Assembly (NCBI RefSeq): GCF_008386465.1
Contig: NZ_VUOD01000001.1
Span: 248,001-312,000, forward strand
DNA length: 64,000 nt
Direction: 5' to 3'
Origin: Arenimonas fontis
GTDB taxonomy: Bacteria; Pseudomonadota; Gammaproteobacteria; Xanthomonadales; Xanthomonadaceae
In this document: one piece after another, positions 26,319 through 39,455 of the stretch
How positions within the stretch are numbered: the stretch's first letter is position 1
Layout: each line of letters opens with the position of its first letter
Made by a program: the position numbers and the translations under genes
The notes under the pieces: generated by a model
What the model was told of the DNA's origin: nothing
Seen by the model: only the letters and a program-made list of their open reading frames with translations
The model's database searches: none

Positions 26319-26535
26319 GGCGTCACCGTGGTGGGTTCCGGGTGGCGGCAGTCTACCAAGGCCGGCAACCGGCCGTTTGCGCCCGGTCAAACCGGAAGCG
26401 CCCGGGCGGCGGCCGCGGCGGACGGTTGCCGATCCGCTCGGGCCGGCTCACCGGGGCACCTGATCACCGCTCGCCTTGCCGGTCTCGGTCGCGTCTGGGA
26501 ACCTGCGCCCTTCGACTGCCTGCCAGGAGACCCGC

Positions 26536-27861
26536 GTGCTCCCGCCATCCCGTTCCGAGGCCGACCCGCCGTCGGCCGCGCCCGTGCCCAGCCTGCCCGG
26601 CCGCACCACGCCCACCTGGGAGATGGAGCTGCTGCTCTCCGGCGCCACCGTGTTCGCCCTGTGGCAGCTGGCCGGCTGGATGGCGCCGTTCACCGCCGGG
26701 CTGTTGCCGCGGCTGGATCCGCGCCTGTCCACCATTGGCGCCATGCTCTACCTCTACCTGGCCACCGGCGTGATCACGCTGGGCATGGCTTTCGTCCTGC
26801 ACCTGGCGCTGCGCGCCTACTGGGTGGCCCTGGTGGGCATGCATTCGGTCTTCCCCGGCGGCCTGCGCCTGGACCGCCTGCGGGCCGGCCCGGTGGCCCG
26901 TGAAGCGCTGCGGCGGCGCTGGCAGGACATGGACCAGGCGATGGAACGGGCCGACAACCGCGCCACCCTGGTATTCGGCCTGGGCATCGGCGTGGCGGCG
27001 GTGCTGGTGCCGATCACCCTGATGGTGGCGGCCCTGTATGGCCTGGTGCTGGGCCTGTGCTGGGCCTTGGACCGGCTGGACCTGGTGCCGCGCCTCTTCA
27101 TTGCCGTCACCGGTCTGGTCCTGCTGCCCTATTTCCTGTGCATGGCCCTGGACCGCTGGCTGGGCGAGCGCCTGACTCCGGAGGGCTGGCCGCGCCGAGC
27201 GTTGGCGGCCTGCTTCGGCCTGTATGCGCGGCTGGGCATGAGCCGCGAATCGAATCCGCTGGTGACGCTGTACTCCAGCCATGTCGGCGAACGACGCAGC
27301 GGCGTCGTGGTCACTGCCATCATCCTGGTGTCCATCTTCCTGGCCTCGACCAGTCTGGATTGGCAACAGGCCGACCTGGGCCCGGGCCAGTACGGCCGCT
27401 TCCCGGAGTCGGGGCGCGGCCTGCCCGGCACGGTGGACGGCGCCCACTACGCCAGCCTGCAGGAGCCCGGCGAAAGCCCTGAGCGCCCCTTCCTGCCGGC
27501 GCCGGTGCTGCGCGGCCGCCATGCCGCCCTGGTGCTGCCGTTCGTACCGGCCCGACATGCCCGGCACTTGGCCGCCTGTGAACGGGCCTCGCCGGGCGGG
27601 GCCGACGCAGCCGCCACCCGTCTGGCCCTGCTGGACTGTTACGCCGGCCTGCACGAGGTGAAGCTGGACGGCAGACCGCTGCCTGTGCGTCCCGAATTCT
27701 ACCTGGACCCGTCGCGCGATCTGCGTGGGCTGATCTACATGATTCCGCTCGCGGAACTGGCGCCGGGCCGGCACGAGCTGGAAATCACCCTGCCCGATCC
27801 GCGCCGGCCCGGCTCGGCATCGCCCCTGCCGCGGCCCGAGCGCATTCCGTTCTGGCGCTAG
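26536..27861 (+). CDS. Polytopic membrane protein, function unknown
   Basis: A 441-residue protein I cannot assign. It has a Pro/Ser-rich cytoplasmic start, then about six hydrophobic segments: roughly residues 30-50, 65-95, 150-190, 200-225, 280-295 and one shorter. The C-terminal part is soluble, about 150 residues, probably extracytoplasmic, with LDCYAGLHEVKLDGRPLPVR. The GTG at 26536 was preferred because GGAG precedes it by 8 bases; an upstream TTG would add a non-conserved leader. Its TAG stop and the TAG stop of the convergent response regulator are read from the same CTAG palindrome. Confidence 0.75.
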   Translation: MLPPSRSEADPPSAAPVPSLPGRTTPTWEMELLLSGATVFALWQLAGWMAPFTAGLLPRLDPRLSTIGAMLYLYLATGVITLGMAFVLHLALRAYWVALVGMHSVFPGGLRLDRLRAGPVAREALRRRWQDMDQAMERADNRATLVFGLGIGVAAVLVPITLMVAALYGLVLGLCWALDRLDLVPRLFIAVTGLVLLPYFLCMALDRWLGERLTPEGWPRRALAACFGLYARLGMSRESNPLVTLYSSHVGERRSGVVVTAIILVSIFLASTSLDWQQADLGPGQYGRFPESGRGLPGTVDGAHYASLQEPGESPERPFLPAPVLRGRHAALVLPFVPARHARHLAACERASPGGADAAATRLALLDCYAGLHEVKLDGRPLPVRPEFYLDPSRDLRGLIYMIPLAELAPGRHELEITLPDPRRPGSASPLPRPERIPFWR

Positions 27862-28520
27862 CCCGGTTCCCGGCCCGGTTCCTGCAACGAAAGCGAGCCC
27901 AGCAACACGCCGGCCTGGGTGCGGTTGCGCACGCCCAGCTTCTCGAAGATGGCGCTCATGTGCGCCTTGACCGTGCGTTCCTGGATGCCCAACTCGTCGG
28001 CGATCTGCTTGTTCAGGCGGCCTTCGGCCACCCGGCTCAGCACCTTGAACTGCTGCGGGCTGAGCGAGGCCAGGCGCGCGGCCACCTCGCCCTCGTCCGC
28101 CGCCGCCGGCGTCCGCGCCACCGCCTCGCGCAGCGAAGGCGGCAGCCACTGCTGGCAGTCCAGCACCGCACGGATGCCGGCCTGCAGTTCGTCCAGACCG
28201 GCGCGCTTGGTCAGGTAGCCGGCGGCGCCGTGCGCGAGCGCGCGGCGGATGGTGGCCGGCTCCTCGTGTGCCGAAATGATGGCCACGGCCACGCCCGGGT
28301 ATTCCGCCCGCAGCGCCGCCAGGCCGACCAGGCCGTGGCTGCCGGGCATGTGCAGGTCGAGCAGCACCAGGTCGATGTCCGGATGCGCGGCCAGCGCCGC
28401 CTGCACCCCGGCCATGTCCTCGGCCTCGTCCAGCACCGCCTCCGGCAACAGTCCGCGCACCGCCTGCACCAGGGCCAGGCAGTAGAGCGGATGGTCGTCG
28501 GCGATCAGGATGCGCGGCAT
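27858..28520 (-). CDS. CrbR/ErdR-like NarL-family response regulator
   Basis: A 220-residue two-component response regulator. The receiver domain carries phospho-acceptor Asp55 (LVLLDLHMPGSHGLVGL), an acidic pair near the start (ADDHP) and a conserved Lys (TKRAGL). A LuxR/NarL helix-turn-helix (LSPQQFKVLSRVAEGRLNKQ, then IADELGIQERTVKAHMSAIF) is at about 150-205. Both halves resemble ErdR/CrbR regulators, which act with SSF-domain hybrid kinases to control acetate or ethanol metabolism genes. The gene lies 30 bases behind 3HB dehydrogenase on the same strand, so probably shares its promoter. Its kinase is probably the hybrid kinase at 31.3-34.6 kb. Confidence 0.9.
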   Translation of the reverse strand: MPRILIADDHPLYCLALVQAVRGLLPEAVLDEAEDMAGVQAALAAHPDIDLVLLDLHMPGSHGLVGLAALRAEYPGVAVAIISAHEEPATIRRALAHGAAGYLTKRAGLDELQAGIRAVLDCQQWLPPSLREAVARTPAAADEGEVAARLASLSPQQFKVLSRVAEGRLNKQIADELGIQERTVKAHMSAIFEKLGVRNRTQAGVLLGSLSLQEPGREPG

Positions 28521-28550
28521 GACCCGATTCTAGCCTTCCGCGACGGTTGG

Positions 28551-29360
28551 CTACTGGGCGGTCCACCCGCCATCCACCGGAATCGCCGCGCCGGTGAGGT
28601 TGTGCGCCTCCGGCCGGCAGAGGAAGACGACGGTGGCGGCGATGTCGGCCGGCAGCGACATGCGCAGGCTGGGCTGCTTCTCGCGCAGCAGCTCGCGCAC
28701 CCCGGCCTCGCGGTCGCCGCCGGCGGCCCGGGCGCGGGCGGAGATCTGCGGCTCGATCAGGGGCGTCTCCACCCAGCCCGGGCAGACGCAGTTGACGGTG
28801 ACGCCGCCACTTTGGCGCGAACCGGCGGCCGCCGCTTCCAACGCCGCCACCTTGCTCAGGCCGACCAGGCCGAACTTGCTGGCCACGTACGGCGATTTCT
28901 GCACCGAAGCCACCAGACCGTGCACCGAGGCGATGTTCACCACCCGGCCGAAGCCGCGTTCGACCATGCCCGGCAGCGCCAGGCGCATGGTGTGGAAAGC
29001 GGCGGAAAGATTGATGGCGACGATCCGGTCCCAGGTGGCGGCCGGCATCTCGCCGATCGGCGCGGTGTGCTGCACGCCGGCACAGTTCACCAGCACGTCC
29101 GGCGGCGACCAGGCCTGCACCTTCGCCATCATGCTTTCCACCGCGGCCGGGTCGGACAGGTCGGCGTCGAAGTAGGGCACCTCGGCGGCACCGGCGGCGC
29201 CCACCCGCTGCTTCGCGGCCTCGATCTGTTCGGCGCTGCCCAGGCCGTTGATCGCCACCCGGGCGCCGGCGGCGCCCAGGGCCTCGGCAATGGCCAGGCC
29301 GATACCGGAGGTGGCGCCGGTGACCAGGGCCGTGCGGCCGGAAAGGAAACGCTCGCTCAT
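28551..29360 (-). CDS. bdhA: D-3-hydroxybutyrate dehydrogenase
   Basis: NAD-dependent short-chain dehydrogenase that interconverts 3-hydroxybutyrate and acetoacetate. The 269 residues show the cofactor motif TGATSGIG (14-21), NCAG (92-95), catalytic Ser145, Tyr158 and Lys162 (NIASVHGLVAS, SPYVASKFG), and the 3HB-dehydrogenase-type CPGWVETPLIEPQI loop. The ending GGWTAQ is also typical. It is divergent from the 3HB-oligomer hydrolase across a 109-base region with a palindromic operator, and is followed by the response regulator. Confidence 0.92.
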   Translation of the reverse strand: MSERFLSGRTALVTGATSGIGLAIAEALGAAGARVAINGLGSAEQIEAAKQRVGAAGAAEVPYFDADLSDPAAVESMMAKVQAWSPPDVLVNCAGVQHTAPIGEMPAATWDRIVAINLSAAFHTMRLALPGMVERGFGRVVNIASVHGLVASVQKSPYVASKFGLVGLSKVAALEAAAAGSRQSGGVTVNCVCPGWVETPLIEPQISARARAAGGDREAGVRELLREKQPSLRMSLPADIAATVVFLCRPEAHNLTGAAIPVDGGWTAQ

Positions 29361-29390
29361 GGGGCAACCGCCAGAATTCCGGGAGTCCCC

Positions 29391-29400
29391 ACCCTAGCAA
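29391..29400 (-). promoter_or_regulatory. Candidate -10 of the bdhA promoter
   Basis: The minus strand reads TTGCTAGGGT, an extended -10 (TGn plus TAGGGT). The hexamer centre is 34 bases from the centre of the palindrome at 29420-29435, which would place the palindrome near -42. Confidence 0.4.
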
Positions 29401-29419
29401 CGGCGACCCGGCCGCCGCG

Positions 29420-29435
29420 TCGTACCAAGGTACGA
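29420..29435. promoter_or_regulatory. Palindromic operator, site 1 of the PHB locus
   Basis: TCGTACCAAGGTACGA is a perfect 7-2-7 inverted repeat in the intergenic region between bdhA and the 3HB-oligomer hydrolase. Its 12-base core GTACCAAGGTAC recurs once more in the only other divergent promoter region of this locus. Inferred binding site of the local NarL-type regulator. Confidence 0.65.
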
Positions 29436-29453
29436 TGGCCGCTCCCTGCCGCC

Positions 29454-29463
29454 TTGCTAAGGT
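29454..29463 (+). promoter_or_regulatory. Candidate -10 of the 3HB-oligomer hydrolase promoter
   Basis: TTGCTAAGGT gives an extended -10 (TGn plus TAAGGT) whose hexamer centre is 33 bases from the operator centre, mirroring the bdhA side. It lies so close to the ATG at 29470 that the mRNA would be nearly leaderless. Alternatively the AAGG here is the ribosome-binding site and the promoter lies elsewhere. Confidence 0.3.
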
Positions 29464-29469
29464 CGGACG

Positions 29470-31233
29470 ATGAACGCCCGTACCCTGCCCCGCCCGACCC
29501 TGCTGGCCGGCGCGATCCTGCTGGCCGGCGCCTGCGCCGGCCCCTTGCCCCGCGCCGGCGTGGATGTCGAGGCAGGCCTGAGGCTCAGCACGCATCGCGA
29601 CGGCGACGACCTGCTGACCGCCGGCCTCGGCGCCGACGGCCTGCGCAGCCCGATACCGCCCGCCTTCGCCAACCCCGAAGCCCCCACGGCCGGGGAACTG
29701 CGCCGGCGGGCGATCTGGAGCAACTGGCGCGGCATCGCCGACCTGGCGCCGGATGGCGGTTACGGCGAGCGCTATGGCTCGCTGCAGCCGGTGCCGGGCC
29801 GTGAGTTCCATGCGCTGATGCGTCTGCCGGGCGCGAAGCAGCCGCACCGGGTGCTGCTGCAGTTGCCCGACGACTATGACGCGCAGGCGCGCTGCCTGGT
29901 GGTGGCGGTGTCCTCGGGTTCGCGCGGCATCTACGGCGCCATCGCCCTGGCCGGCGCCTGGGGCCTGCCGCGCGGCTGTGCCGTCGCCTATACCGACAAG
30001 GGCGCCGGTACCGGTTACGTGGATACCAGCGACGGCCGCGGCATAGGCCTGGACGGCCGCATTGCGGAAGACGGCCAGCCGGTGGAATTCACCGTGGCGG
30101 CGGCATCCGAAGGCGCGCCGCCCGCCATCGCCGTCAAGCACGCCCACTCCGGCGACAAGCCCGAAGCCGACTGGGGCCGACATGCGCAGCAGGCGACGCA
30201 GTTCGCCCTGCAGGTGCTCAACCGCGAACGGCCGCAGGATGGCGCCTACACCTGGGACAACACCCGCGTGCTGCTGACCGGCCTCTCCAACGGCGGTGGC
30301 GCCGTGCTGCGCGCGGCCGAGCTGCCGGGTCCGGAGTTCGACGCGGTGGTGGCGATCTCGCCCAACGTCTGGCCGGCCGGGAGCGGCCGCGCCCTGTTCG
30401 ACTACGCCAGCGAAGCGGCGATCTGGATGCCCTGTGCCCTCGCCGCGCCGGCGTTCGACGCGGTGGTGCTGGCCCGCCCGGGCGGCCAGCCGGCGCCGGC
30501 GGCGCTGCAGCGCTGCGCCTCGCTGCGCGCCGCCGGTGAGCTGCAGGCCGAGACGCCACGCGAGCAGGCCGCCGCAGCGCTCGCCTTCCTGCGCGCGCAA
30601 GGCTGGACCGACGAGGCCCTCGCCGCCGGCGCGCTCAGCACCGCCTTCGATCTTTGGCGCTCGGTACTGGTCACCTATGCCTCGTCCTACGCCGGCACCG
30701 GTCCCTTCGACATGCCCTGCGGCTACCGCCTGGCCGCCATGGGCGCCGATGGCGTGGCGCGCGCCCCGACCGCAGCCGAACGCGCGGTCTGGTGGAGCGA
30801 TGCCAGCGGCATTCCCCCGGGTGCCGGCGTCGGCATCGTGGACACGATGGCCGATGGCGAGGATCCGCACCTGCCCGGCCTGCGCTGCCTGCGCGCGCTC
30901 TGGGAGGACGAGGGCTCGGCCGCGCGCGCCGGCGTCGCCGCCACCCGCGCCGGCCTGCCACGCGAGGGCCTGCCGGTGATCGTCCTGCACGGCAGCGACG
31001 ACGGCCTGATCCCCGAAGCCTTCAGCGCCAGGCCCTACGTCGCCGGCGCCCGGACGGCCGGCCGCGACGTCGAATACCGCCCCGTCGCCGACGCCCAGCA
31101 CTTCGACGCCTTCCTCGGCCTGCCCTTCCTGCGACCGGTGTACGTGCCGATGCTCGAACCCGGCTACCGGGCCCTCGACGACGCCTGGTCCCGCGTCGCC
31201 GCCGGTAATCCCGCGTCCGACGCGCTGCCGTGA
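29470..31233 (+). CDS. D-3-hydroxybutyrate oligomer hydrolase
   Basis: Hydrolyses soluble 3-hydroxybutyrate oligomers to monomers. The 587 residues match the 3HB-oligomer hydrolase family in length and pattern: nucleophile Ser273 in LLTGLSNGGGAVLRAAELPG, VVAISPNVWP just after it, an aspartate in VLHGSDDGLIP, and the histidine in VADAQHFDAFLGLPFL near the C-terminus. The N-terminus (LLAGAILLAGACAGP) looks like an export signal with a possible lipoprotein cysteine at 22, so an envelope location is likely. It stands alone on the plus strand and is divergent from bdhA. Confidence 0.92.
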   Translation: MNARTLPRPTLLAGAILLAGACAGPLPRAGVDVEAGLRLSTHRDGDDLLTAGLGADGLRSPIPPAFANPEAPTAGELRRRAIWSNWRGIADLAPDGGYGERYGSLQPVPGREFHALMRLPGAKQPHRVLLQLPDDYDAQARCLVVAVSSGSRGIYGAIALAGAWGLPRGCAVAYTDKGAGTGYVDTSDGRGIGLDGRIAEDGQPVEFTVAAASEGAPPAIAVKHAHSGDKPEADWGRHAQQATQFALQVLNRERPQDGAYTWDNTRVLLTGLSNGGGAVLRAAELPGPEFDAVVAISPNVWPAGSGRALFDYASEAAIWMPCALAAPAFDAVVLARPGGQPAPAALQRCASLRAAGELQAETPREQAAAALAFLRAQGWTDEALAAGALSTAFDLWRSVLVTYASSYAGTGPFDMPCGYRLAAMGADGVARAPTAAERAVWWSDASGIPPGAGVGIVDTMADGEDPHLPGLRCLRALWEDEGSAARAGVAATRAGLPREGLPVIVLHGSDDGLIPEAFSARPYVAGARTAGRDVEYRPVADAQHFDAFLGLPFLRPVYVPMLEPGYRALDDAWSRVAAGNPASDALP

Positions 31234-31239
31234 AAGGAA

Positions 31240-31264
31240 TATTGGCCGCGGATTTGCGCGGCTA
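31240..31264. repeat. GCGGAT-type repeat fragment, copy 3
   Basis: A short stretch (ATTGGCCGCGGATTTGCGCG) matches the left flank and first units of the hairpin repeat near 25.49 kb (12 of 13 bases over ACTGGCCGCGGAT). It occupies the 38-base gap between the convergent oligomer hydrolase and sensor kinase genes. Confidence 0.5.
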
Positions 31265-31271
31265 ATAACCC

Positions 31272-34200
31272 CTATTTCCGCCTCGGCTGCAGTCGGGACA
31301 TGGCGGACTTCAGGGCCAGGGGCTTCAGTGGCTTGTGCAGGAGGAGGCAGCCGGCGGCGGTGACGGCGTCGCGGACGGCGGCGCTGTGGTCGGCGGTGAT
31401 GATCGCGCAGGGAATGCCGGCGCAGGCCGGGCCCAGCTCCTCGCGCAACTGCAGGCCGGTGCGGTCGCCGTCGAGGTGGAAGTCCAGCAGCAGCAGGTCA
31501 GGTGGTGGATGGCCGGCCAGGCGCGCCTGCGCCTCGCGGCCGTCGTGGGCGGCCAGCACCTCGCAGCCCCAGCCGCCGAGCAGGGCCTGCATGCCGCGAA
31601 GCACGTCGGCATCGTTGTCCACCACCAGCACCCGGCTGCGCGGCGCTTCCACGGGCGCCGGCGGCTCCGGCGCGGGCACCGCGGCCACCGGCTCGGCCAG
31701 CGGCACCCCGATGGCGAAGACCGTGCCCCTGCCCGGCCAGGACCGCAGGCTCAGCGGATGCCCCAGCAGCCGCGCCACGCGCTCGGCGATGGCCAGGCCC
31801 AGGCCCAGGCCCTGGCCGCCGCGGTCGAGCCGACGGAATTCCTCGAAGATCAGCCCCTGGTCGGCCTCGGCGATGCCCGGGCCGGTGTCCCAGACCTCGA
31901 TCGCCAGCGCATTGCCGCGGCGCCGGCAACCCACCAGCACCCGGCCCCCGCGGGTGTAGCGCACAGCGTTGGCCAGGAAGTTCTGCAGCACCCGGCGCAG
32001 CAGTTGCGGATCCGAGCGCACCCAGGCCCGGGTCGGCACCAGGTCCAGGTCCAGGCCCTTTTGCGCCGCCAGCACGCGGAACTCGGCGGCCAGCGGCTGC
32101 AGCAGCTCCTCCAGGCGGAAGGGCTGCGGCGAGGCGTTCATGCCGCCGGCGTCCAGGCGGGAAATGTCCAGCAACCCGGCCAGCAGCGCCTCGGCCGAAC
32201 CGAGCGCGCCGTCGATGTTGGACAGGGCTTCGCGGTGCGCCGGTTCCTTCAGCTCCGGCGACAGCGCATGCACGAACAGGTGCGCCGCGTTCAGTGGCTG
32301 CGCCAGGTCGTGGCTGACGGCGGCCAGGAAACGCGTCTTGGCGCGGTTGGCACGCTCGGCCTCGGCCTTGGCCCGGGCCAGTTCGGCGGTGCGTTCGGCC
32401 ACGCGCTGCTCGAGGGTTTCGGCCACCGACTTGAGCTCGGCCTCGCTGCGGCGGAAGGCAGTGACGTCGGTGAAGGTGGCGACGAAACCGCCGCCTGGCA
32501 TCGGGTTGCCACGGATCTCCACCACCTGCTCGCCGACGCGGCGCTCGGTCACGTAGGGCGTGCCGGCGCGCATGTGGGCGATGCGCTTGGCCACCTCCTC
32601 GTCTGCCGCGCCCTCGCCGGCCAGGCCGCGGCGGATGTTGTATTCGACCAGGTCGGCCACCGGCACGCCGACCTGCAGCAGCGAATCCGGATAACCGAAC
32701 AGTTCGGCGTAGCGGCGGTTCCAGGCAACCAGGCGCAGCTCGGCGTCCACCACGCTGATGCCCTGACTCATGTTCTCCAGGGCCGCCTCCAGCACGCGCT
32801 GGTTGAAGCGCAGCGCCTGCGATGCCTCGTCCACGATGCTGGCAACGGTGTCCAGCTCGCTTTCCTGGGCCCGGCGCGCCGCGTCCAGCAGCAGCCGCGC
32901 CGAGGCGGCGCCCAGCACCGCCGAGAGTTCGCGCTCGACCTGCCGCTCCACTTCCCGCGGTACGTCCTCGCCGCTCACCGGCGCCAGCAGCGCGTCCACA
33001 CGCGGCGCCGGCAGGAACCGCAGGGCCAGGGCACGCAGGCTGGCGCGCGGCAAGGTGCCGCCGCTGCCACGCTCCGGCGTCTGCGTCTGGCCCAGGCCTG
33101 CGGCCAGCAGCCAGGGCAGCAGAGCGCCGGCGCCCAGGCTCAGCAGGGTGGCCCGGCCCAGCCGGCTCCAATCGTCCAGACCGAGGAAACCGTCGGGCGA
33201 CAGCCAGGCCAGGCCGAAGGGGCCGTGCGTGAGCCAGCTCCAGCGCCAGTCGAAGGCCTCGGCCAGGGCCGGTGCCAGCAGCACCCAGCTCCACACCGCC
33301 ACCGCCGCCACCAGGCCGACGAGCACCGCCCGCGGCGGCATCTGCGGCCGCCAGACCGCGAAGGCCACCGCCGGCGCCAGCGAGGCCAGGCCGGAGAAAG
33401 ACACCGCGCCGATGTCGGCCAGGGCCTCGCTGCCGGCGATGGCACGGCTGTAGACCCAGGCCAGCAGCACCACTGCCAGGATGCCGACGCGGCGCTGGAA
33501 CAGCACGGCGCCGCGCAGGTCGGCCTCGCCGGCGTCGGCATGCGCCGCCCAGGGACCACGCACCAGCAGCGGCGCCAGCCAGTGGTTGCCGATCATCAGG
33601 CTCAGCGCCAGCGTCGCCAGGATCACCATGCCGGTGGCGGCGCTGAGGCCGCCAAGAAAGGCCAGCAGGGCCAGTCCCTCCCGCCCTTCCGACAGCGGCA
33701 AGGCCAGCACGTACAGGTCGGAGGGCACACCCAGCGGCGCCAGCAGCGCATGGCCGGCCCTGGCCAGCGGCAGGATCGGCAGGGCGATCAGCAGCATGTA
33801 CAGCGGAAACAGCCAGCGCGCGGTGCGCAGCTGCGCCTCGTCCCTGCACTCGACCACGCCGACGTGGAATTGGTGCGGCAGGGTGAACATGGCCAGCGCG
33901 CCCAGCAGTACCAGCGCCGGGAAGCCGCTGGCGCCGTCGGCCGGTGGCGCGGGCGCCGGTGCGTCGGGCAGGTCCAGCCCGAACCAGACGAAGGCGCCCA
34001 GGGCCAGCATCGCTCCCAGCTTCAGCAGCGATTCCACTGCCATCGCCAGCACCAGGCCGCGGTTGTGCTCGATCGCCGAGGCGCGGCGGGTACCAAACAG
34101 CATGGCGAACACCGCCATGGCCAGGGCCACGTACAGGGCGCTGTCCTGCCAGGCCGGCGGCGACAGCTCCGAGGCCCGGGTCAGCAGGCCGAAGCTCATC

Positions 34201-34613
34201 GCCACCGCCTTCAGCTGCAGGGCGATATAGGGAATGATGCCCAGCACCGCCACGAAGGTGACCGCTGCCGCCAGCCAGGAGTCACGGCCCAGGCGCGTGG
34301 CCACCAGGTCGGCCAGCGAGGTCGAGTTGTGCTCGCGGGCGATGCGCAGCAGCTTGAGCAGGAAGCCGAAGCCGAGCAGGTACAGCAGGATGGTGCCGAG
34401 GAAGGTCGGCGGAATGGCCCAGCCCGAACGCTGGGCCTGGGTGACCGTGCCGTAGAAGGTCCAGGACGTGCAGTACACCGCCAGCGACAGGCTGTAGACC
34501 ACCGGCCAGCGCCGGGCGAGAAGTCCCGGGTGCCGTTCCGCCCACAAGGCCGTGCCGAACAACAGGCCCAGCCAGACCAGGCCCGCGCCCACCACCAGGC
34601 CGGCGCTCAGCAC
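31272..34613 (-). CDS. CrbS/MxtR-like hybrid sensor histidine kinase
   Basis: A 1113-residue inner-membrane sensor. Residues 1 to about 530 form a polytopic domain of roughly 12-13 TM segments, like sodium:solute symporters (SSF/SLC5). A PAS domain (about 610-715, ENMSQGISVVDAELRLVAWN), a HisKA domain with phospho-acceptor His768 (AVSHDLAQPLNAAHLF), an HATPase domain and a C-terminal receiver with Asp1044 (LLLLDFHLDGD) follow. This order is that of CrbS/MxtR kinases, which pair with a separate NarL regulator. The GTG at 34613 is used; it lies 13 bases after the PHB depolymerase stop, so the gene belongs to the receptor-depolymerase-kinase operon. Confidence 0.92.
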   Translation of the reverse strand: MLSAGLVVGAGLVWLGLLFGTALWAERHPGLLARRWPVVYSLSLAVYCTSWTFYGTVTQAQRSGWAIPPTFLGTILLYLLGFGFLLKLLRIAREHNSTSLADLVATRLGRDSWLAAAVTFVAVLGIIPYIALQLKAVAMSFGLLTRASELSPPAWQDSALYVALAMAVFAMLFGTRRASAIEHNRGLVLAMAVESLLKLGAMLALGAFVWFGLDLPDAPAPAPPADGASGFPALVLLGALAMFTLPHQFHVGVVECRDEAQLRTARWLFPLYMLLIALPILPLARAGHALLAPLGVPSDLYVLALPLSEGREGLALLAFLGGLSAATGMVILATLALSLMIGNHWLAPLLVRGPWAAHADAGEADLRGAVLFQRRVGILAVVLLAWVYSRAIAGSEALADIGAVSFSGLASLAPAVAFAVWRPQMPPRAVLVGLVAAVAVWSWVLLAPALAEAFDWRWSWLTHGPFGLAWLSPDGFLGLDDWSRLGRATLLSLGAGALLPWLLAAGLGQTQTPERGSGGTLPRASLRALALRFLPAPRVDALLAPVSGEDVPREVERQVERELSAVLGAASARLLLDAARRAQESELDTVASIVDEASQALRFNQRVLEAALENMSQGISVVDAELRLVAWNRRYAELFGYPDSLLQVGVPVADLVEYNIRRGLAGEGAADEEVAKRIAHMRAGTPYVTERRVGEQVVEIRGNPMPGGGFVATFTDVTAFRRSEAELKSVAETLEQRVAERTAELARAKAEAERANRAKTRFLAAVSHDLAQPLNAAHLFVHALSPELKEPAHREALSNIDGALGSAEALLAGLLDISRLDAGGMNASPQPFRLEELLQPLAAEFRVLAAQKGLDLDLVPTRAWVRSDPQLLRRVLQNFLANAVRYTRGGRVLVGCRRRGNALAIEVWDTGPGIAEADQGLIFEEFRRLDRGGQGLGLGLAIAERVARLLGHPLSLRSWPGRGTVFAIGVPLAEPVAAVPAPEPPAPVEAPRSRVLVVDNDADVLRGMQALLGGWGCEVLAAHDGREAQARLAGHPPPDLLLLDFHLDGDRTGLQLREELGPACAGIPCAIITADHSAAVRDAVTAAGCLLLHKPLKPLALKSAMSRLQPRRK

Positions 34614-34626
34614 GACCCGTGCTTCC

Positions 34627-35673
34627 TCAGGGCGCGCCCAGCGCGTCCAGGACGGCGGCCAGCCAGCGCAGCTGGGCACCCGTGCGGGTGTCGTAGTCCT
34701 CGCCCGTGTATCCCCACCAGTCCCAGCATGCCTTCGGATTCAGCGGCAGGTAGCTCGATCGCGCCTGAGGATACAGCACGGCCACGCGATGCAGGTCGGC
34801 CCAGGCATTGAGGCCACTGCCACGGGCGAAGGTGTCGCCGACGCTGCCGATGTCCTGCTGGCAGCCGTGGAAGGCGACCAGCAGGCCGCAGGCTTCGCCG
34901 GCCGCGCACTCGGGCGGCAGGTAGAGAAAACCTTCGTCGGCCAGCAACGGATCGCCGCCATCGGCGGCCAGCCCGGCCTGGCCGAAGCGGCGCAGTTCGC
35001 CGCGCGGTTCGCCCGGTGCACCTTCCACCGGCCCGAACAGGTGATGCATGACCTCGCCGGCGGCATCGAAGCCGCAGGCGCCCAGCCAGGGGCTGCCGCC
35101 GTCCAGGCAGTCGCCGCCCTCGGCGACTGTCGGCCAGACATGGCCGAAACGACGTTCGCCGTCCCAGGTGAGCTCGAAGGCGATGCCCTCTTCCACCAGT
35201 GCGGTGTAGAAGTCGCGGGCGGCAGCGCCGACCGCCGGGTTCACCGTCGCGTCCTCGGTGCCGTGCATGACCAGCACGCGGTCACCGGCCAGGGCCGACA
35301 GCGGTGCCGCGCGGCCATCGGCGGCGCGCTCACGGGCGCGGGCCAGCAAGGCCGGGACATCCGGTCCGTGAGGCCGGGCAACCATGCAGGGGCCCAGCGC
35401 CACCTGCAACTGTCCCTGCGCGCAACCCGGTGGGCCGCCGGCAATCAGGGCCACCCCATCCAGCCGCTCCGCCAGCGCCAGATGCGCCTGCGCTGCCATG
35501 TAGGCGCCCGACGAGAGTCCCGCCACGGCGACCCGCCCGCGCTCGATGTCCAGTCGCGGCAGCGGCTCGCCGCGACTGCCGCCGCAGGCGGCGACCAGCA
35601 CCATCGCCGACAGCAAAAAGAGCCGGGCCGCATGCGCGGCCCGTTGGGACATTCCCCGGGGAAACCGTTCCAT
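34627..35673 (-). CDS. PHB depolymerase, predicted lipoprotein
   Basis: A 348-residue esterase of the single-domain (type 2) poly(3-hydroxybutyrate) depolymerase family. The proposed triad is Ser54 (GLSSGAYMAA), Asp141 (VMHGTEDATVNP) and His178 (FGHVWPT), in the order and approximate spacing of the Penicillium funiculosum enzyme. The VAFHGCQQDIGSVGD and LNPKACWDWWGY motifs near the C-terminus are typical. The N-terminus LLSAMVLVAACGGS has a lipobox with Cys30, so it should be anchored in the outer membrane. No substrate-binding domain is attached. The start is TGATG-coupled to the TonB receptor; an ATG 21 bases further in is an alternative. Confidence 0.88.
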   Translation of the reverse strand: MERFPRGMSQRAAHAARLFLLSAMVLVAACGGSRGEPLPRLDIERGRVAVAGLSSGAYMAAQAHLALAERLDGVALIAGGPPGCAQGQLQVALGPCMVARPHGPDVPALLARARERAADGRAAPLSALAGDRVLVMHGTEDATVNPAVGAAARDFYTALVEEGIAFELTWDGERRFGHVWPTVAEGGDCLDGGSPWLGACGFDAAGEVMHHLFGPVEGAPGEPRGELRRFGQAGLAADGGDPLLADEGFLYLPPECAAGEACGLLVAFHGCQQDIGSVGDTFARGSGLNAWADLHRVAVLYPQARSSYLPLNPKACWDWWGYTGEDYDTRTGAQLRWLAAVLDALGAP

Positions 35674-37898
35674 CAGAAGCTGTAGCGCGCGCTCAGGCTG
35701 TACTGGCGGGGCGGGCCGTAGAAGCCGGTCACCACGCCGAAAGCACCGATGTTGTAGCCGGTGGTCCGGTATTCCTCGTCGGTCAGGTTGCTGCCCTGCA
35801 GCGACAGCATCCAGGCATCGTTGATCTGCCAGATGACGCCGGCATTGACCAGGCCATAGCCGTCCTGGCGAATCAGTGGGCTGAGATCGGTGGTCGGCCA
35901 GACCTCCGACTGGTAGCTGTAGCCGACCCGTGCCGACAGGTTGCCGCCGTTGGCCAGGCCGGTGCGGTACTCGACGTTGATGGCCCCGGAAAACTCTGGC
36001 GCATTGGTGAAGCGCTGGCTGTCGGCGATGTTGACGCCAGCGCTGATGAACTCGTCGTACTCGGCATCCAGCCAGGCCAGGTTGCCGCTGATCAGCCAGT
36101 TCTCGGTCGGCAGGAACTGGTACTCGACTTCGATACCCTGCACCGTGCCCCTGCCGGCGTTGGTGAAGTCGCCGAAGAAGCTCTGGCTGCCATCCGGCAG
36201 CGTGTAGGAGGTGAAGACCGAAAGCTGGATGTCCTTGTACTTGTTGTGGAAGTAGGCGAGGTTCAGGAACAGCCGCTGGTCCAGCAGCGACATCTTGCTG
36301 CCGATCTCGTAGCTGTCCACCACCTCGTCGTCGAAGGGCTCGCCTGAAGCCGGTACCGCCGTGGTGTTGGCACGGATGTTGAAGCCGCCCGACTTGAAGC
36401 CACGCGATGCCAGGCCATAGATCATCACTTCGTCGCTCAGCTGGTAGTCCAGCGATATCTTCGGCGAGACGTTCTTGAAGTTGACCGTCTTGTCGAAGTT
36501 GGCGGCAGTGGCCCAGGGCGTGGTGTAACTGAGGTCGGTGTAGAACCGGTTTAGCGCCACCGCGTGCTTGTCCTCGTCGGTGTAGCGGGCGCCGACGTCG
36601 AGCCTGAGCCGGTCGCTCAGGTCGAAGCTCCAGTCAGCGTAGACAGCCATGCTGTCCGTGTTGACGTAACCCTGGGTATCGCCGAACAGCGGGTTGGTCA
36701 GGCTGGGCGGGATCAACGGGTTGTTGAAGTGGTTGAGCACCTGACCACCAGCGTCGCCGTTGAACAGGTACAGGCCCATCACGCCGCGGGCACGACCACC
36801 GGCATCGTAGTTGGCCTGCAGTTCGTGGCTGACCTGCTCATCGAAGTAGAAGGCACGCACGTCCACCAGCGGCATCGGCAGGGTATCGAAGTCAATGTTG
36901 GTTTCGGTGTCTGATTCGCGCTTGGCGATCACGTACTTCAGCGCCCAATCGTCGTTGACCCGCCAGTTGAGGGTCGCCGAAGCACCCTTCATGGTGGTGT
37001 CGTTGATGTTTTTCATGCCGCTGCGGATGTCATAGCGGTCGTCCAGCGGCAGGAAGCCCGGTGCCAGCGGGTTGGCCACCAGCATCTGCGCCCCACGCAC
37101 GCCGGACTGGTCGTCCAGCCAGTCCATGCTGAACTGGACGTCGAAGTCCTCGGTGACGAAGGCGCCCAGCTGCACGCGGGCGACATTGATCTCCTTGTCG
37201 CTGACGTCCTGGCCGGTGTACAGGTTTTCGCCATAGCCATCATGGTTGAGGCTGGCCAGCGAGACGCGGGCGCGCAGGCCGCTGTCCTCGCCGCCGATCG
37301 GGCCGCCTACGGCGGCCTTGGCGTCGAGCCGGCCGTGGCTGCCCACCGTCAGTTCGGCCATGCCGCCGAACTCGGTCGGCAGCCCGCGGGAAATGTACTT
37401 GATGGCGCCGCCGATGGTGTTCTTGCCATACAGCGTTCCCTGCGGGCCGCGCAGCACCTCGATCCGCTCGACGTCGAACACGTCCAGCAGCGCGCCCTGC
37501 GGGCGGGCGATGTAGACGTCGTCCAGGTAGATGCCGACACCGGGGTCCACGCCCCAGAGCGGATCGGCCTGGCCGACGCCGCGGATATAGGCGGTGACCG
37601 TGCTTGTGGAGCCGCGGGCAGCGTAGATGGTGAGGTTGGGCACCTGCGCGTCCAGGTCACCCAGGTCACGGATGTTGAGCTTGTCCAGGGACTCCGGAGT
37701 GAAGGCGGTGACCGCCACCGGCACATCCTGCAGGGTTTCCTCGCGCTTGCGGGCGGTGACCTGGATGGCGTCCAGGGTGACGGCGGAACGTTCGGCAGCC
37801 GCGTCGTCGGCCTCTGTGGCCGCGTCCTGGGCCGACGCCAGCGGTGCGGCGAGCGACAGGGACAGGCCGATGGCCAGGCTGAGATGGTTGCGCTTCAT
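35673..37898 (-). CDS. TonB-dependent outer-membrane receptor
   Basis: A 741-residue ligand-gated porin. It has a signal peptide (MKRNHLSLAIGLSLSLAAPL), a TonB-box-like segment LDAIQVTARKREE, a plug domain (about 50-165, VPVAVTAFTPESLDKLNIRD to RIEVLRGPQGTLYGKNTIGG) and a 22-strand barrel ending in the outer-membrane terminal phenylalanine (YSLSARYSF). No N-terminal signalling domain is present, so it is a transporter rather than a transducer. It is the first gene of an operon with PHB depolymerase and the hybrid kinase, which suggests 3HB oligomers or PHB fragments as ligand; that is inference. AAGGGGAG gives a strong ribosome site. Confidence 0.92.
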   Translation of the reverse strand: MKRNHLSLAIGLSLSLAAPLASAQDAATEADDAAAERSAVTLDAIQVTARKREETLQDVPVAVTAFTPESLDKLNIRDLGDLDAQVPNLTIYAARGSTSTVTAYIRGVGQADPLWGVDPGVGIYLDDVYIARPQGALLDVFDVERIEVLRGPQGTLYGKNTIGGAIKYISRGLPTEFGGMAELTVGSHGRLDAKAAVGGPIGGEDSGLRARVSLASLNHDGYGENLYTGQDVSDKEINVARVQLGAFVTEDFDVQFSMDWLDDQSGVRGAQMLVANPLAPGFLPLDDRYDIRSGMKNINDTTMKGASATLNWRVNDDWALKYVIAKRESDTETNIDFDTLPMPLVDVRAFYFDEQVSHELQANYDAGGRARGVMGLYLFNGDAGGQVLNHFNNPLIPPSLTNPLFGDTQGYVNTDSMAVYADWSFDLSDRLRLDVGARYTDEDKHAVALNRFYTDLSYTTPWATAANFDKTVNFKNVSPKISLDYQLSDEVMIYGLASRGFKSGGFNIRANTTAVPASGEPFDDEVVDSYEIGSKMSLLDQRLFLNLAYFHNKYKDIQLSVFTSYTLPDGSQSFFGDFTNAGRGTVQGIEVEYQFLPTENWLISGNLAWLDAEYDEFISAGVNIADSQRFTNAPEFSGAINVEYRTGLANGGNLSARVGYSYQSEVWPTTDLSPLIRQDGYGLVNAGVIWQINDAWMLSLQGSNLTDEEYRTTGYNIGAFGVVTGFYGPPRQYSLSARYSF

Positions 37899-37947
37899 GG
37901 TCTCCCCTTGCAGAGCGGTTGGGCGGCCGGATGGCCGGACGTTGCGC

Positions 37948-37953
37948 AGGGTA
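37948..37953 (-). promoter_or_regulatory. Candidate -10 of the TonB-receptor operon
   Basis: The minus strand reads TACCCT, with its centre 34 bases from the centre of the palindrome at 37978-37991, the same spacing as on the bdhA side of the first operator. Weak match on its own. Confidence 0.3.
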
Positions 37954-37977
37954 TGCCGCGCCGGCCGGCCACGGACT

Positions 37978-37991
37978 TGTACCTTGGTACA
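37978..37991. promoter_or_regulatory. Palindromic operator, site 2 of the PHB locus
   Basis: TGTACCTTGGTACA, a perfect 6-2-6 inverted repeat, reads TGTACCAAGGTACA on the other strand and shares the core GTACCAAGGTAC with site 1. It lies in the 159-base divergent region between the TonB receptor and the permease. Confidence 0.65.
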
Positions 37992-38057
37992 GGTGCCCCG
38001 CCGGCAGCACGGCAGGGACACTGCGAACCGGTCCAGTTGCCCGGGGGACTCTCCCGC

Positions 38058-39455
38058 ATGTCCCTGCTGATCGTGCTCGCCGCCCTGTGCTTCCTGATGC
38101 TGGTGGCCTATCGTGGCTACAGCGTGATCCTGTTCGCGCCGGTGGCGGCCATGGGCGCGGTGCTGCTGACCGACCCGCACCTGGTCGCACCGATGTTCAC
38201 CGGCCTGTTCATGGAGCGCATGGTCGGCTTCCTCAAGCTCTACTTTCCGGTATTCCTGCTCGGGGCGGTGTTCGGCAAGCTGGTGGAGATCTCCGGATTC
38301 TCGCGCTCGATCGTCGCCGCGGTGATCCGGCTGTTCGGCGCCGACCGGGCCATGCTGTCCATCGTGGTCGTCTGCGCCCTGCTCACCTATGGCGGGGTGT
38401 CGCTGTTCGTGGTTGTGTTCGCGGTCTATCCCTTCGCGGCCGAACTGTTCCGCCAGGCCGACATCCCCAAGCGGCTGATCCCCGGCACCATCGCCCTGGG
38501 GGCATTCACCTTCACCATGGATGCGCTGCCCGGAACGCCGCAGATCCAGAACATCATCCCGACCGGCTTCTTCGGCACCGATGCCTGGGCGGCGCCGGTA
38601 CTGGGCACGCTAGGTGGCCTGTTCATCCTCGGCGTCGGCCTGGCCTACCTCGAATGGCGCCGCCGGATCGCCCGCGCCAGTGGCGAAGGTTATGGCCGCG
38701 ACCTGAAGAACGAACCGGCGCCGTTCGCCGGCGAACGCCTGGCCAATCCCTGGATCGCCCTGCTGCCGCTGCTGCTGGTGGGAGTGTCCAACAAAGCCTA
38801 CACGCTGCTGATCCCACGCCTGTATGGCGACAGCCACAGCTTTCTGCCCTCGGTGGTGGGCGAGCCGGCCCCGGTGGTGCAGGAGGTATCGAAGGTCGCA
38901 GCGATCTGGGCGGTCGAGGCTGCCCTCCTCACCGGTATCCTGGCGGTTCTGCTGTTGGCCTGGGGAGACGTGCGCCGCCACTTCGCCGAAAGCACCCAGC
39001 CTGCGATCGGCGGCGCCCTGCTGGCCTCGATGAACACCGCCTCCGAGTATGGCTTCGGCGCAGTCATCGCCGCCCTGCCCGGTTTCCTGGTGGTGGCCAA
39101 TGCCCTCGCGGGCATTCCCGACCCGCTGGTCAACCAGGCGATCACCGTCACCGCGCTGGCCGGCATCACCGGCTCGGCCAGCGGCGGCATGAGCATCGCC
39201 CTGGCGGCCATGGGCGACACTTTCATCGCCAACGCAGGCGCCGCCGGCATCCCGATGGACGTGCTGCACCGGGTCGCCTCCATGGCCAGCGGCGGCATGG
39301 ACACCCTGCCGCACAACGGCGCGGTCATCACCCTGCTGGCGGTGACCGGGCTCAGCCACCGCCAGGCCTATCGGGACATCTTCGCTATCACCCTCATCAA
39401 GACCGCCGCCGTGTTCGTGGTGATCGGCCTGTTCTACCTGACCGGCTGGGTCTGA
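38058..39455 (+). CDS. GntP-family permease, likely 3-hydroxybutyrate importer
   Basis: A 465-residue inner-membrane protein with about 12 hydrophobic segments, of the GntP/ion-transporter superfamily. Characteristic stretches are VIRLFGADRAMLSIVVVCAL, ALLTYGGVSLFVVVFAVYPF, FTFTMDALPGTPQIQNIIPT, ASGGMSIALAAMGD and ASMASGGMDTLPHNGAVITL. GntP-type permeases are often found with 3HB dehydrogenase genes, and here the whole neighbourhood is 3HB metabolism, so uptake of 3HB or acetoacetate is the best guess. It has a GGGGGA ribosome site and is divergent from the TonB receptor across operator site 2. Confidence 0.85.
   Translation: MSLLIVLAALCFLMLVAYRGYSVILFAPVAAMGAVLLTDPHLVAPMFTGLFMERMVGFLKLYFPVFLLGAVFGKLVEISGFSRSIVAAVIRLFGADRAMLSIVVVCALLTYGGVSLFVVVFAVYPFAAELFRQADIPKRLIPGTIALGAFTFTMDALPGTPQIQNIIPTGFFGTDAWAAPVLGTLGGLFILGVGLAYLEWRRRIARASGEGYGRDLKNEPAPFAGERLANPWIALLPLLLVGVSNKAYTLLIPRLYGDSHSFLPSVVGEPAPVVQEVSKVAAIWAVEAALLTGILAVLLLAWGDVRRHFAESTQPAIGGALLASMNTASEYGFGAVIAALPGFLVVANALAGIPDPLVNQAITVTALAGITGSASGGMSIALAAMGDTFIANAGAAGIPMDVLHRVASMASGGMDTLPHNGAVITLLAVTGLSHRQAYRDIFAITLIKTAAVFVVIGLFYLTGWV

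Follow-up and report, generated by a model that had tools for sequence, protein, structure and literature searches.

Loci that combine a surface hydrolase, a TonB receptor, an inner-membrane permease and a hybrid sensor are known from polysaccharide utilisation (the SusCD type), and secreted depolymerases of the polyester poly(3-hydroxybutyrate) (PHB) are also known. Here we describe seven genes in a 64-kb window of the Arenimonas fontis genome (positions 248001-312000 of contig C1; the assembly comprises 2.63 Mb in 32 contigs). Their predicted roles are like those in a polysaccharide utilisation locus, they share a promoter palindrome, and a core of them is conserved. The locus differs from the SusCD type in having a polyester as its predicted substrate, no SusD among its seven genes, and a transceptor as its sensor. 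We consider it probable that these genes form a private regulon, controlled by their own sensor, through which the cell scavenges PHB and oligomers of 3-hydroxybutyrate (3HB) from outside.

The regulatory pair of the locus has close described relatives. CrbS/CrbR (MxtR/ErdR) responds to acetate in Pseudomonas and Vibrio (excerpt of PMC5715377; see also PMC5436829) and, like our locus, combines an SLC5/STAC hybrid kinase and a LuxR-type regulator with an inverted-repeat operator (a proposed one in our locus), with an ACYWNNGT-like core, just upstream of the promoter. Unlike CrbS/CrbR, the pair in the window adjoins PHB and 3HB genes; the outer half-site of its proposed operator is GTAC, versus AGAC upstream of acs in the same genome; and a CrbS-like kinase and regulator coexist with it, near that acs. 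RpuS/RpuR, which responds to pyruvate (excerpt of PMC9100948), also has an SLC5/STAC kinase beside a LuxR regulator and controls a monocarboxylate permease, but it is alphaproteobacterial and the Figure 1 legend of that paper names no hydrolase or TonB receptor.

In enzyme activities, here predicted, the two hydrolases of the locus are like the Cupriavidus PhaY 3HB-oligomer hydrolases (PMC2864759, in excerpt) and the secreted PHB depolymerases; unlike these, they are predicted lipoproteins encoded together with a TonB receptor and a transceptor. In the excerpt of PMC2864759, an intracellular PhaY is the subject of one section and siderophore receptors are the subject of another. The bdhA-GntP clusters on plasmids of Azospirillum, Cupriavidus and Klebsiella resemble the locus in having a permease of the same family adjoining a 3HB dehydrogenase, but the stretches that we opened have no gene annotated as an oligomer hydrolase, a TonB receptor or an SLC5 kinase. 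By searching the open-access literature (titles and the starts of abstracts, with subscription papers outside the search) we found no such gene set and no SLC5/STAC system for 3HB, in agreement with a preliminary description of this DNA, made from the sequence alone, which knew of no locus with this set. As far as we searched, the enzyme and sensor families are known, and their combination, the dedicated operator and the spread of the locus are not described in that literature.

Gene content and conservation

All seven open reading frames (ORFs) are confirmed and span positions 27858-39455 of the window; for the kinase, the TonB receptor and the permease, refined ends are given:

27858-28520, minus strand: LuxR-type response regulator (RR), CrbR/ErdR-like, 220 amino acids, with Response_reg and GerE domains
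28551-29360, minus strand: D-3-hydroxybutyrate dehydrogenase (BDH), 269 amino acids (NF009093, PDB 2yz7)
29470-31233, plus strand: 3HB-oligomer hydrolase (OH), predicted lipoprotein (Cys22), 587 amino acids (PF10605)
31272-34616, minus strand: SLC5/STAC hybrid histidine kinase (HK) with the architecture SLC5-STAC-PAS-HisKA-HATPase-REC, 1114 amino acids, with a possible upstream GTG start at 34679
34627-35673, minus strand: single-domain type-2 short-chain-length polyhydroxyalkanoate (PHA) depolymerase, predicted lipoprotein, 348 amino acids (NF050059, PDB 2d80)
35673-37898, minus strand: TonB-dependent receptor (TBDR), 741 amino acids, with Plug and beta-barrel domains
38058-39455, plus strand: GntP-type permease for 3HB (acetoacetate), 465 amino acids, 70-73% identical to its best 15 plasmid homologues

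Family models, PDB matches and homologues agree with the identities that the preliminary description gave to these ORFs. The stop codon of TBDR overlaps the start codon of the depolymerase gene, and the kinase gene lies within 10 bases of the latter, so these three minus-strand genes look like one operon; BDH and RR, with 30 bases between them, look like another. The plus strand carries the OH and permease genes, and each of them diverges from one of these two operons.

The enzymes were assigned by family models and structures. BDH scores 281.8 bits against NF009093 (cut-off 258) and 293.1 bits against TIGR01963, which is under that model's cut-off of 307.05, and its best PDB match is the D-3-hydroxybutyrate dehydrogenase 2yz7 (1.8e-75). 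OH matches PF10605 (3HBOH; 2.9e-108, 363.5 bits, profile positions 33-637 of 688), a family to which we take the Cupriavidus 3HB-oligomer hydrolase to belong. Residues S273, D511 and H544 are invariant in 10 aligned OH rows and would be the catalytic Ser, Asp and His; Cys22, in a lipobox-like signal, is kept in at least 90% of the same rows. The depolymerase scores 292.3 bits against NF050059 (cut-off 280) and aligns through residues 38-337 to PDB 2d80, a single-domain PHB depolymerase (1.8e-36). Its export signal is predicted from a VAAC lipobox read by eye, so that both hydrolases are candidates for export from the cytoplasm. Because the model match covers residues 38-344 of 348, there is no room in the depolymerase for a substrate-binding domain, which is absent from it, unlike secreted PHB depolymerases.

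We found that a core of this gene set recurs around OH. The 80 named loci that we compared are the best 80 of at least 589 confirmed, ranked by how similar they are to the query, which favours close kin; the OH relatives most similar to that of the window are mostly from Arenimonas. As an even draw we used 60 genomes of the same family, a sample that overlaps with the named loci. PF10605 is present in 43 of these genomes, A. fontis included, and the family sample consists of 43 OH loci from 41 relatives, on stretches no longer than 20 kb that in some cases break off at a contig end; a fragment in G059 is not among them. Contig ends and the 10-kb flanks can hide genes in any of these loci. Among the 80 named loci, RR is found in 72, HK in 55, TBDR in 46, the permease in 43, BDH in 41 and the depolymerase in 9; the corresponding numbers among the 43 sampled family loci are 39, 32, 27, 22, 22 and 4. 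RR, HK, TBDR and the permease occur jointly with OH in 42 of the named loci and in 22 of the sampled ones. Since the set recurs across many genera it is not a chance juxtaposition, and we rejected the idea of a chance cluster. All seven genes are together in only 5 of the 80 named loci, all annotated Arenimonas. With so few occurrences the depolymerase must be regarded as accessory, and the conserved theme is the use of 3HB oligomers.

The 42 four-gene loci fall into five gene orders, and in 37 loci the order is a variant of a single scheme: permease (-), TBDR (+), kinase (+), regulator (-), in some cases dehydrogenase (-), and hydrolase (+). Two of the 37 have a depolymerase gene between TBDR and kinase, and one has an extra dehydrogenase-like gene. 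In the window, as in the other five four-gene loci, the RR-BDH-OH segment (27858-31233) is inverted; when partial loci are included, the inversion is found in 8 of the 80, seven annotated Arenimonas and one a Lysobacteraceae bacterium. Two Arenimonas species keep the common order, without the inversion: A. oryziterrae (L093) and A. maotaiensis (L100).

More distantly, OH is present in 11 of 369 genomes of the class: A. fontis itself, two of the same family, a weak fragment (G271) that was not fetched, and seven that were. Of these seven, G424, from the same order, has TBDR, HK, RR and BDH in a stretch that ends inside TBDR. G345, from another family, has the full set minus the depolymerase, with TBDR and permease just 32-35% identical to those of the window. 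G075, one of five further genomes from other families, has a depolymerase homologue beside OH.

A 461-amino-acid protein encoded next to the block, at 26476-27861 on the plus strand, has no match in Pfam or NCBIfam. Its homologues are adjacent to the block in 10 of the 80 named loci, beside RR in seven inverted ones and beside OH in L093, L098 and L113.

A palindrome in both divergent promoter regions

The two divergent promoter regions contain the following sites:

29422-29433, between BDH and OH: proposed RR operator A, palindrome GTACCAAGGTAC
37979-37990, between TBDR and permease: proposed RR operator B, palindrome GTACCTTGGTAC
29391-29396, minus strand: TAGGGT, a -10-like box facing BDH/RR at a gap of 25 nt to the palindrome
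29458-29463, plus strand: TAAGGT, a -10-like box facing OH at a gap of 24 nt to the palindrome, with an ATG 6 nt further
37948-37953, minus strand: TACCCT, a -10-like box facing TBDR at a gap of 25 nt to the palindrome
38017-38022, plus strand: GACACT, a -10-like box facing the permease at a gap of 26 nt to the palindrome

Common to both regions is the 12-bp palindrome GTACSAARGTAC, operator B being the reverse complement of operator A. The pattern GTACCWWGGTAC, allowing at most one mismatch, has two sites in the 64-kb window, which are operators A and B, compared to 0.08 expected. The exact palindrome occurs at just two places in the whole assembly, both in this locus, and the copies elsewhere with one mismatch (C1:55023 and C4:35512) are both inside ORFs.

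The palindrome is conserved in different genera, as the named loci show, which we counted together with the window. A match at 8 or more of the 10 fixed positions is found in 72 of 75 regions on the OH side and 38 of 44 on the TBDR-permease side, compared to about 5.8 and 2.9 in shuffled sequences, a comparison that ignores kinship. Site columns have 1.74 bits on the OH side and 1.64 on the TBDR-permease side, versus 0.54 and 0.59 in the flanks, as measured on the rows chosen for matching at 8 or more positions, a choice that inflates the site columns. The -10-like boxes were noticed first in these loci and afterwards counted over all rows. TAnnnT is located 24-25 bases past the site toward OH in 70 of 72 rows, at a gap of 25-26 toward TBDR in 35 of 38 rows, and at a gap of 24-25 toward BDH/RR in 46 of 72. 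Toward the permease,.AnnnT is at a gap of 25-26 in all 38 rows, against a mean of 1.6 rows and a largest count of 9 for other adjacent gap pairs. The site-box pair toward OH occurs in 71 of 75 regions, against 0-1 of 75 for every one of 20 shuffles, and on the TBDR-permease side it occurs in 28 of 44 regions with rows not turned to one orientation. Generic scans were uninformative, giving 0 sigma-70 promoters and 6 terminator-like sites versus 3.8 expected.

The next ATG is 6-7 bases past the OH box in 54 of 70 rows, which suggests that the OH mRNA is probably leaderless. If transcription starts about 7 bases past each box, as we assume, the centre of the palindrome lies near -43. The ACTU repeat of CrbR, which is experimentally required, is at -52 to -36 (excerpt of PMC5715377), and the CrbR sites listed there share an ACYWNNGT-like core with our palindrome but differ in their half-sites. 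In A. fontis, acs has CTAGACCAATGTCTAAT upstream, and we did not find TAnnnT at the locus spacing in that upstream region. The locus palindrome looks like a shifted ACTU site whose outer half has changed to GTAC, and we infer that RR binds it. Conservation of the gene set and the shared palindrome support the view that the locus is one regulated unit.

Outside the family, the same spacing is seen for the sites in both gaps of G345, where the box facing the permease is weaker. In the five other-family OH loci that do not have the gene set, the top three matches in each (400-550 bases upstream of OH) include no site of 8 or more matches with TAnnnT at 24-26. One of them, L080, has one 8-of-10 site without a spaced TAnnnT.

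The sensor kinase and its paralogue near acs

HK is an SLC5/STAC "transceptor" kinase. It matches NF041832 (NahK/ErcS) with 410.7 bits (cut-off 400). Its PAS, HisKA, HATPase and REC domains are found by Pfam, and the STAC part is seen solely through alignment to PDB 10ED, the SLC5-STAC structure of CbrA (preprint PMC13022988, in excerpt). The N-terminus has 13 hydropathy peaks, and a profile of 34 HK rows finds 10ED as its one PDB chain (5.3e-91, over profile positions 4-565). An AlphaFold model (pLDDT 87.7) has fold matches to CHT1, NIS, SGLT and SMCT1 (TMq 0.49-0.60 among the best rows). The Pfam SSF domain is unmatched at E ≤ 1 in HK, and likewise in its paralogue on contig C28. By counting by hand along the alignment to CbrA, we found that CbrA Lys196, at the former sodium site, aligns with HK Lys199, which is invariant in the 34 rows; unlike this, Ser53, which contacts the histidine carboxylate in CbrA, aligns with Thr50 of HK. 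The neighbours of HK are also PHB genes, not histidine genes.

We considered whether HK and RR could be a second acetate system of the CrbS/CrbR kind, with the PHB genes forming part of a general response to C2 compounds. Domain architecture, the LuxR partner and the resemblance of the operator to ACTU all fit this idea, and the NCBIfam model closest to RR is ErdR (214.6 bits, under the 390-bit cut-off). However, a separate SLC5-type kinase, about 49% identical to HK, is encoded on C28 with a LuxR regulator paralogous to RR and acs within about 4 kb, and acs adjoins that regulator gene and has the ACTU-like site upstream. This pair is apparently the acetate switch of the genome. In a tree of the kinases, 30 of the C28 type (that of A. 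fontis included) and 34 from OH loci (that of the window included) are split by one fully supported branch. The tree was made by FastTree alone, each row was labelled by its neighbourhood or its best hits, and L055 and L067 are long branches in it. As the two kinds are on opposite sides of the supported branch, the pair in the window is paralogous to the presumed acetate switch and is not that switch, so we rejected its identification as CrbS/CrbR proper. The confinement of the exact palindrome to this locus also speaks against a second acetate system, which we consider very unlikely. The preliminary description was right that a two-component system is present, but it missed its nature as an SLC5/STAC transceptor pair paralogous to CrbS/CrbR.

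In the C28 region (G000:C28:162866-171786), a DUF294 gene lies on the other side of the kinase gene. Genome G029 has two OH loci (L042 and L055) about 31 kb apart; the kinase of L055 is divergent, with 51% identity to HK and 40% to the C28 kinase, and this second locus is possibly a further duplication.

Possible roles: polyester scavenging, storage and monomer uptake

If the locus is a scavenging regulon, the two lipoproteins, the 3HB-oligomer hydrolase and (in this lineage) the depolymerase, would cut the polyester outside the cytoplasm, TBDR would carry oligomers over the outer membrane, and the permease would import 3HB. BDH would then make acetoacetate, to be activated by the 3-oxoacid CoA-transferase ScoA/B. 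HK would sense a small carboxylate, most simply 3HB, and phosphorylate RR. By binding the palindrome, which would lie about 43 bp ahead of each of four start sites arranged as two divergent pairs, RR would turn on the permease, receptor-depolymerase-kinase, dehydrogenase-regulator and hydrolase genes together. The preliminary description had likened the seven genes to a polysaccharide utilisation locus; the gene identities and the logic of the pathway hold up, except that the depolymerase is accessory. Its term "self-contained" was too strong, because ScoA/B is encoded on another contig, C23. An acetyl-CoA-synthetase-like gene at C1:119206 was rejected as an acetoacetyl-CoA synthetase, since it encodes a long-chain fatty-acid CoA ligase.

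Alternatively, the locus might belong to the PHB storage cycle, recovering oligomers or 3HB leaked from a cell's own granules or those of its kin, with an ancestral coupling to a class III PHA synthase. Of the 80 named loci, 47 have phaE and 44 have phaC downstream of OH, and a pssA-like gene often stands in between; L036, L050 and L103, among others, have the pssA-like gene, phaE and phaC (class III PHA synthase) there. The class III PhaC model TIGR01836 matches in 52 of the 60 family genomes, so turnover of the cell's own PHB is possible in these bacteria, and the Cupriavidus 3HB-oligomer hydrolase acts intracellularly (excerpt of PMC2864759). However, OH is a predicted lipoprotein, and an internal polymer should need no TonB receptor. 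Moreover, TIGR01836 is unmatched in the window genome, in its congener G042, and in G009 and G055, all of which have OH. The window genome also has no match to PhaC_N (PF07167), a poor probe for class III synthases that hits 17 of the 60 genomes, mostly weakly and above cut-off in 4. As far as these two family searches show, the window lineage appears to keep the scavenging half without a PHA synthase. We consider a role in storage unlikely. Lysobacters prey on other cells, and lysed neighbours are a plausible source of PHB.

A second alternative is that the locus serves mainly for uptake of 3HB or other short-chain hydroxyacid monomers, the TBDR and hydrolases acting on other esters or being passengers. 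The permease matches 103 plasmid records, and 9 of the 15 best are annotated as GntP family permeases. In all three plasmid neighbourhoods that we opened its relatives adjoin a 3HB dehydrogenase, and in two of them a CoA transferase as well, with no annotated oligomer hydrolase. The scarcity of the depolymerase near OH and the variability of TBDR also point in this direction. Against it, OH belongs to PF10605, and its promoter shares the palindrome with the permease-receptor pair; we regard monomer uptake as quite unlikely to be the main role.

Several further observations weigh, together with the storage genes and the intracellular Cupriavidus enzyme, against polyester scavenging under the control of RR. 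TBDR is a distant one, 32-37% identical to that of the window, in 7 of the 46 named loci that have one, which makes the link between receptor and substrate weak. The permease, the least secure identity of the seven, has no Pfam match at E ≤ 1 (full gene) and no NCBIfam match (with a query starting six codons inside the gene), so that its GntP label comes from annotated homologues and no curated model. Five OH loci from other families have no HK, RR, TBDR or permease. Used as a negative control for the palindrome, loci lacking RR give a mixed picture: among 11 OH loci with no RR in the stretch examined, four (L131, L139, L141 and L155) still have a correctly spaced site upstream of OH, two (L109 and L070) have a 9-of-10 site and one (L160) an 8-of-10 site without the spacing, and four have none; in L089 a contig end cuts the region.

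In L090 (A. caeni) and the six other named loci with a 32-37% receptor, this receptor is in the same place and its neighbours are conserved, as in a receptor replacement in place.

Polyester scavenging remains the interpretation that we favour. We are more hesitant, to the point of leaning slightly against it, about a wider claim: that the locus is the polyester counterpart of a polysaccharide utilisation locus, in which TBDR imports 3HB oligomers; that its sensor is a 3HB-sensing transceptor, paralogous to the acetate-sensing kinase and insulated from it by the changed operator half-site; and that its private regulon of two divergent promoter pairs extends across Lysobacterales genera and at least one genome of another family. 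If true, a TonB receptor would be given polyester oligomers as its substrate class, and the SLC5/STAC sensor systems, few of which are characterised, would gain one more metabolic branch. It would also provide a natural promoter and sensor pair for 3HB. Because one genome contains both paralogous systems together with their operators, it offers a tractable example of how two-component systems separate after duplication. The locus would also be a genomic marker of PHB-scavenging bacteria, which may obtain the polymer, for example, from lysed neighbours or from bioplastics.

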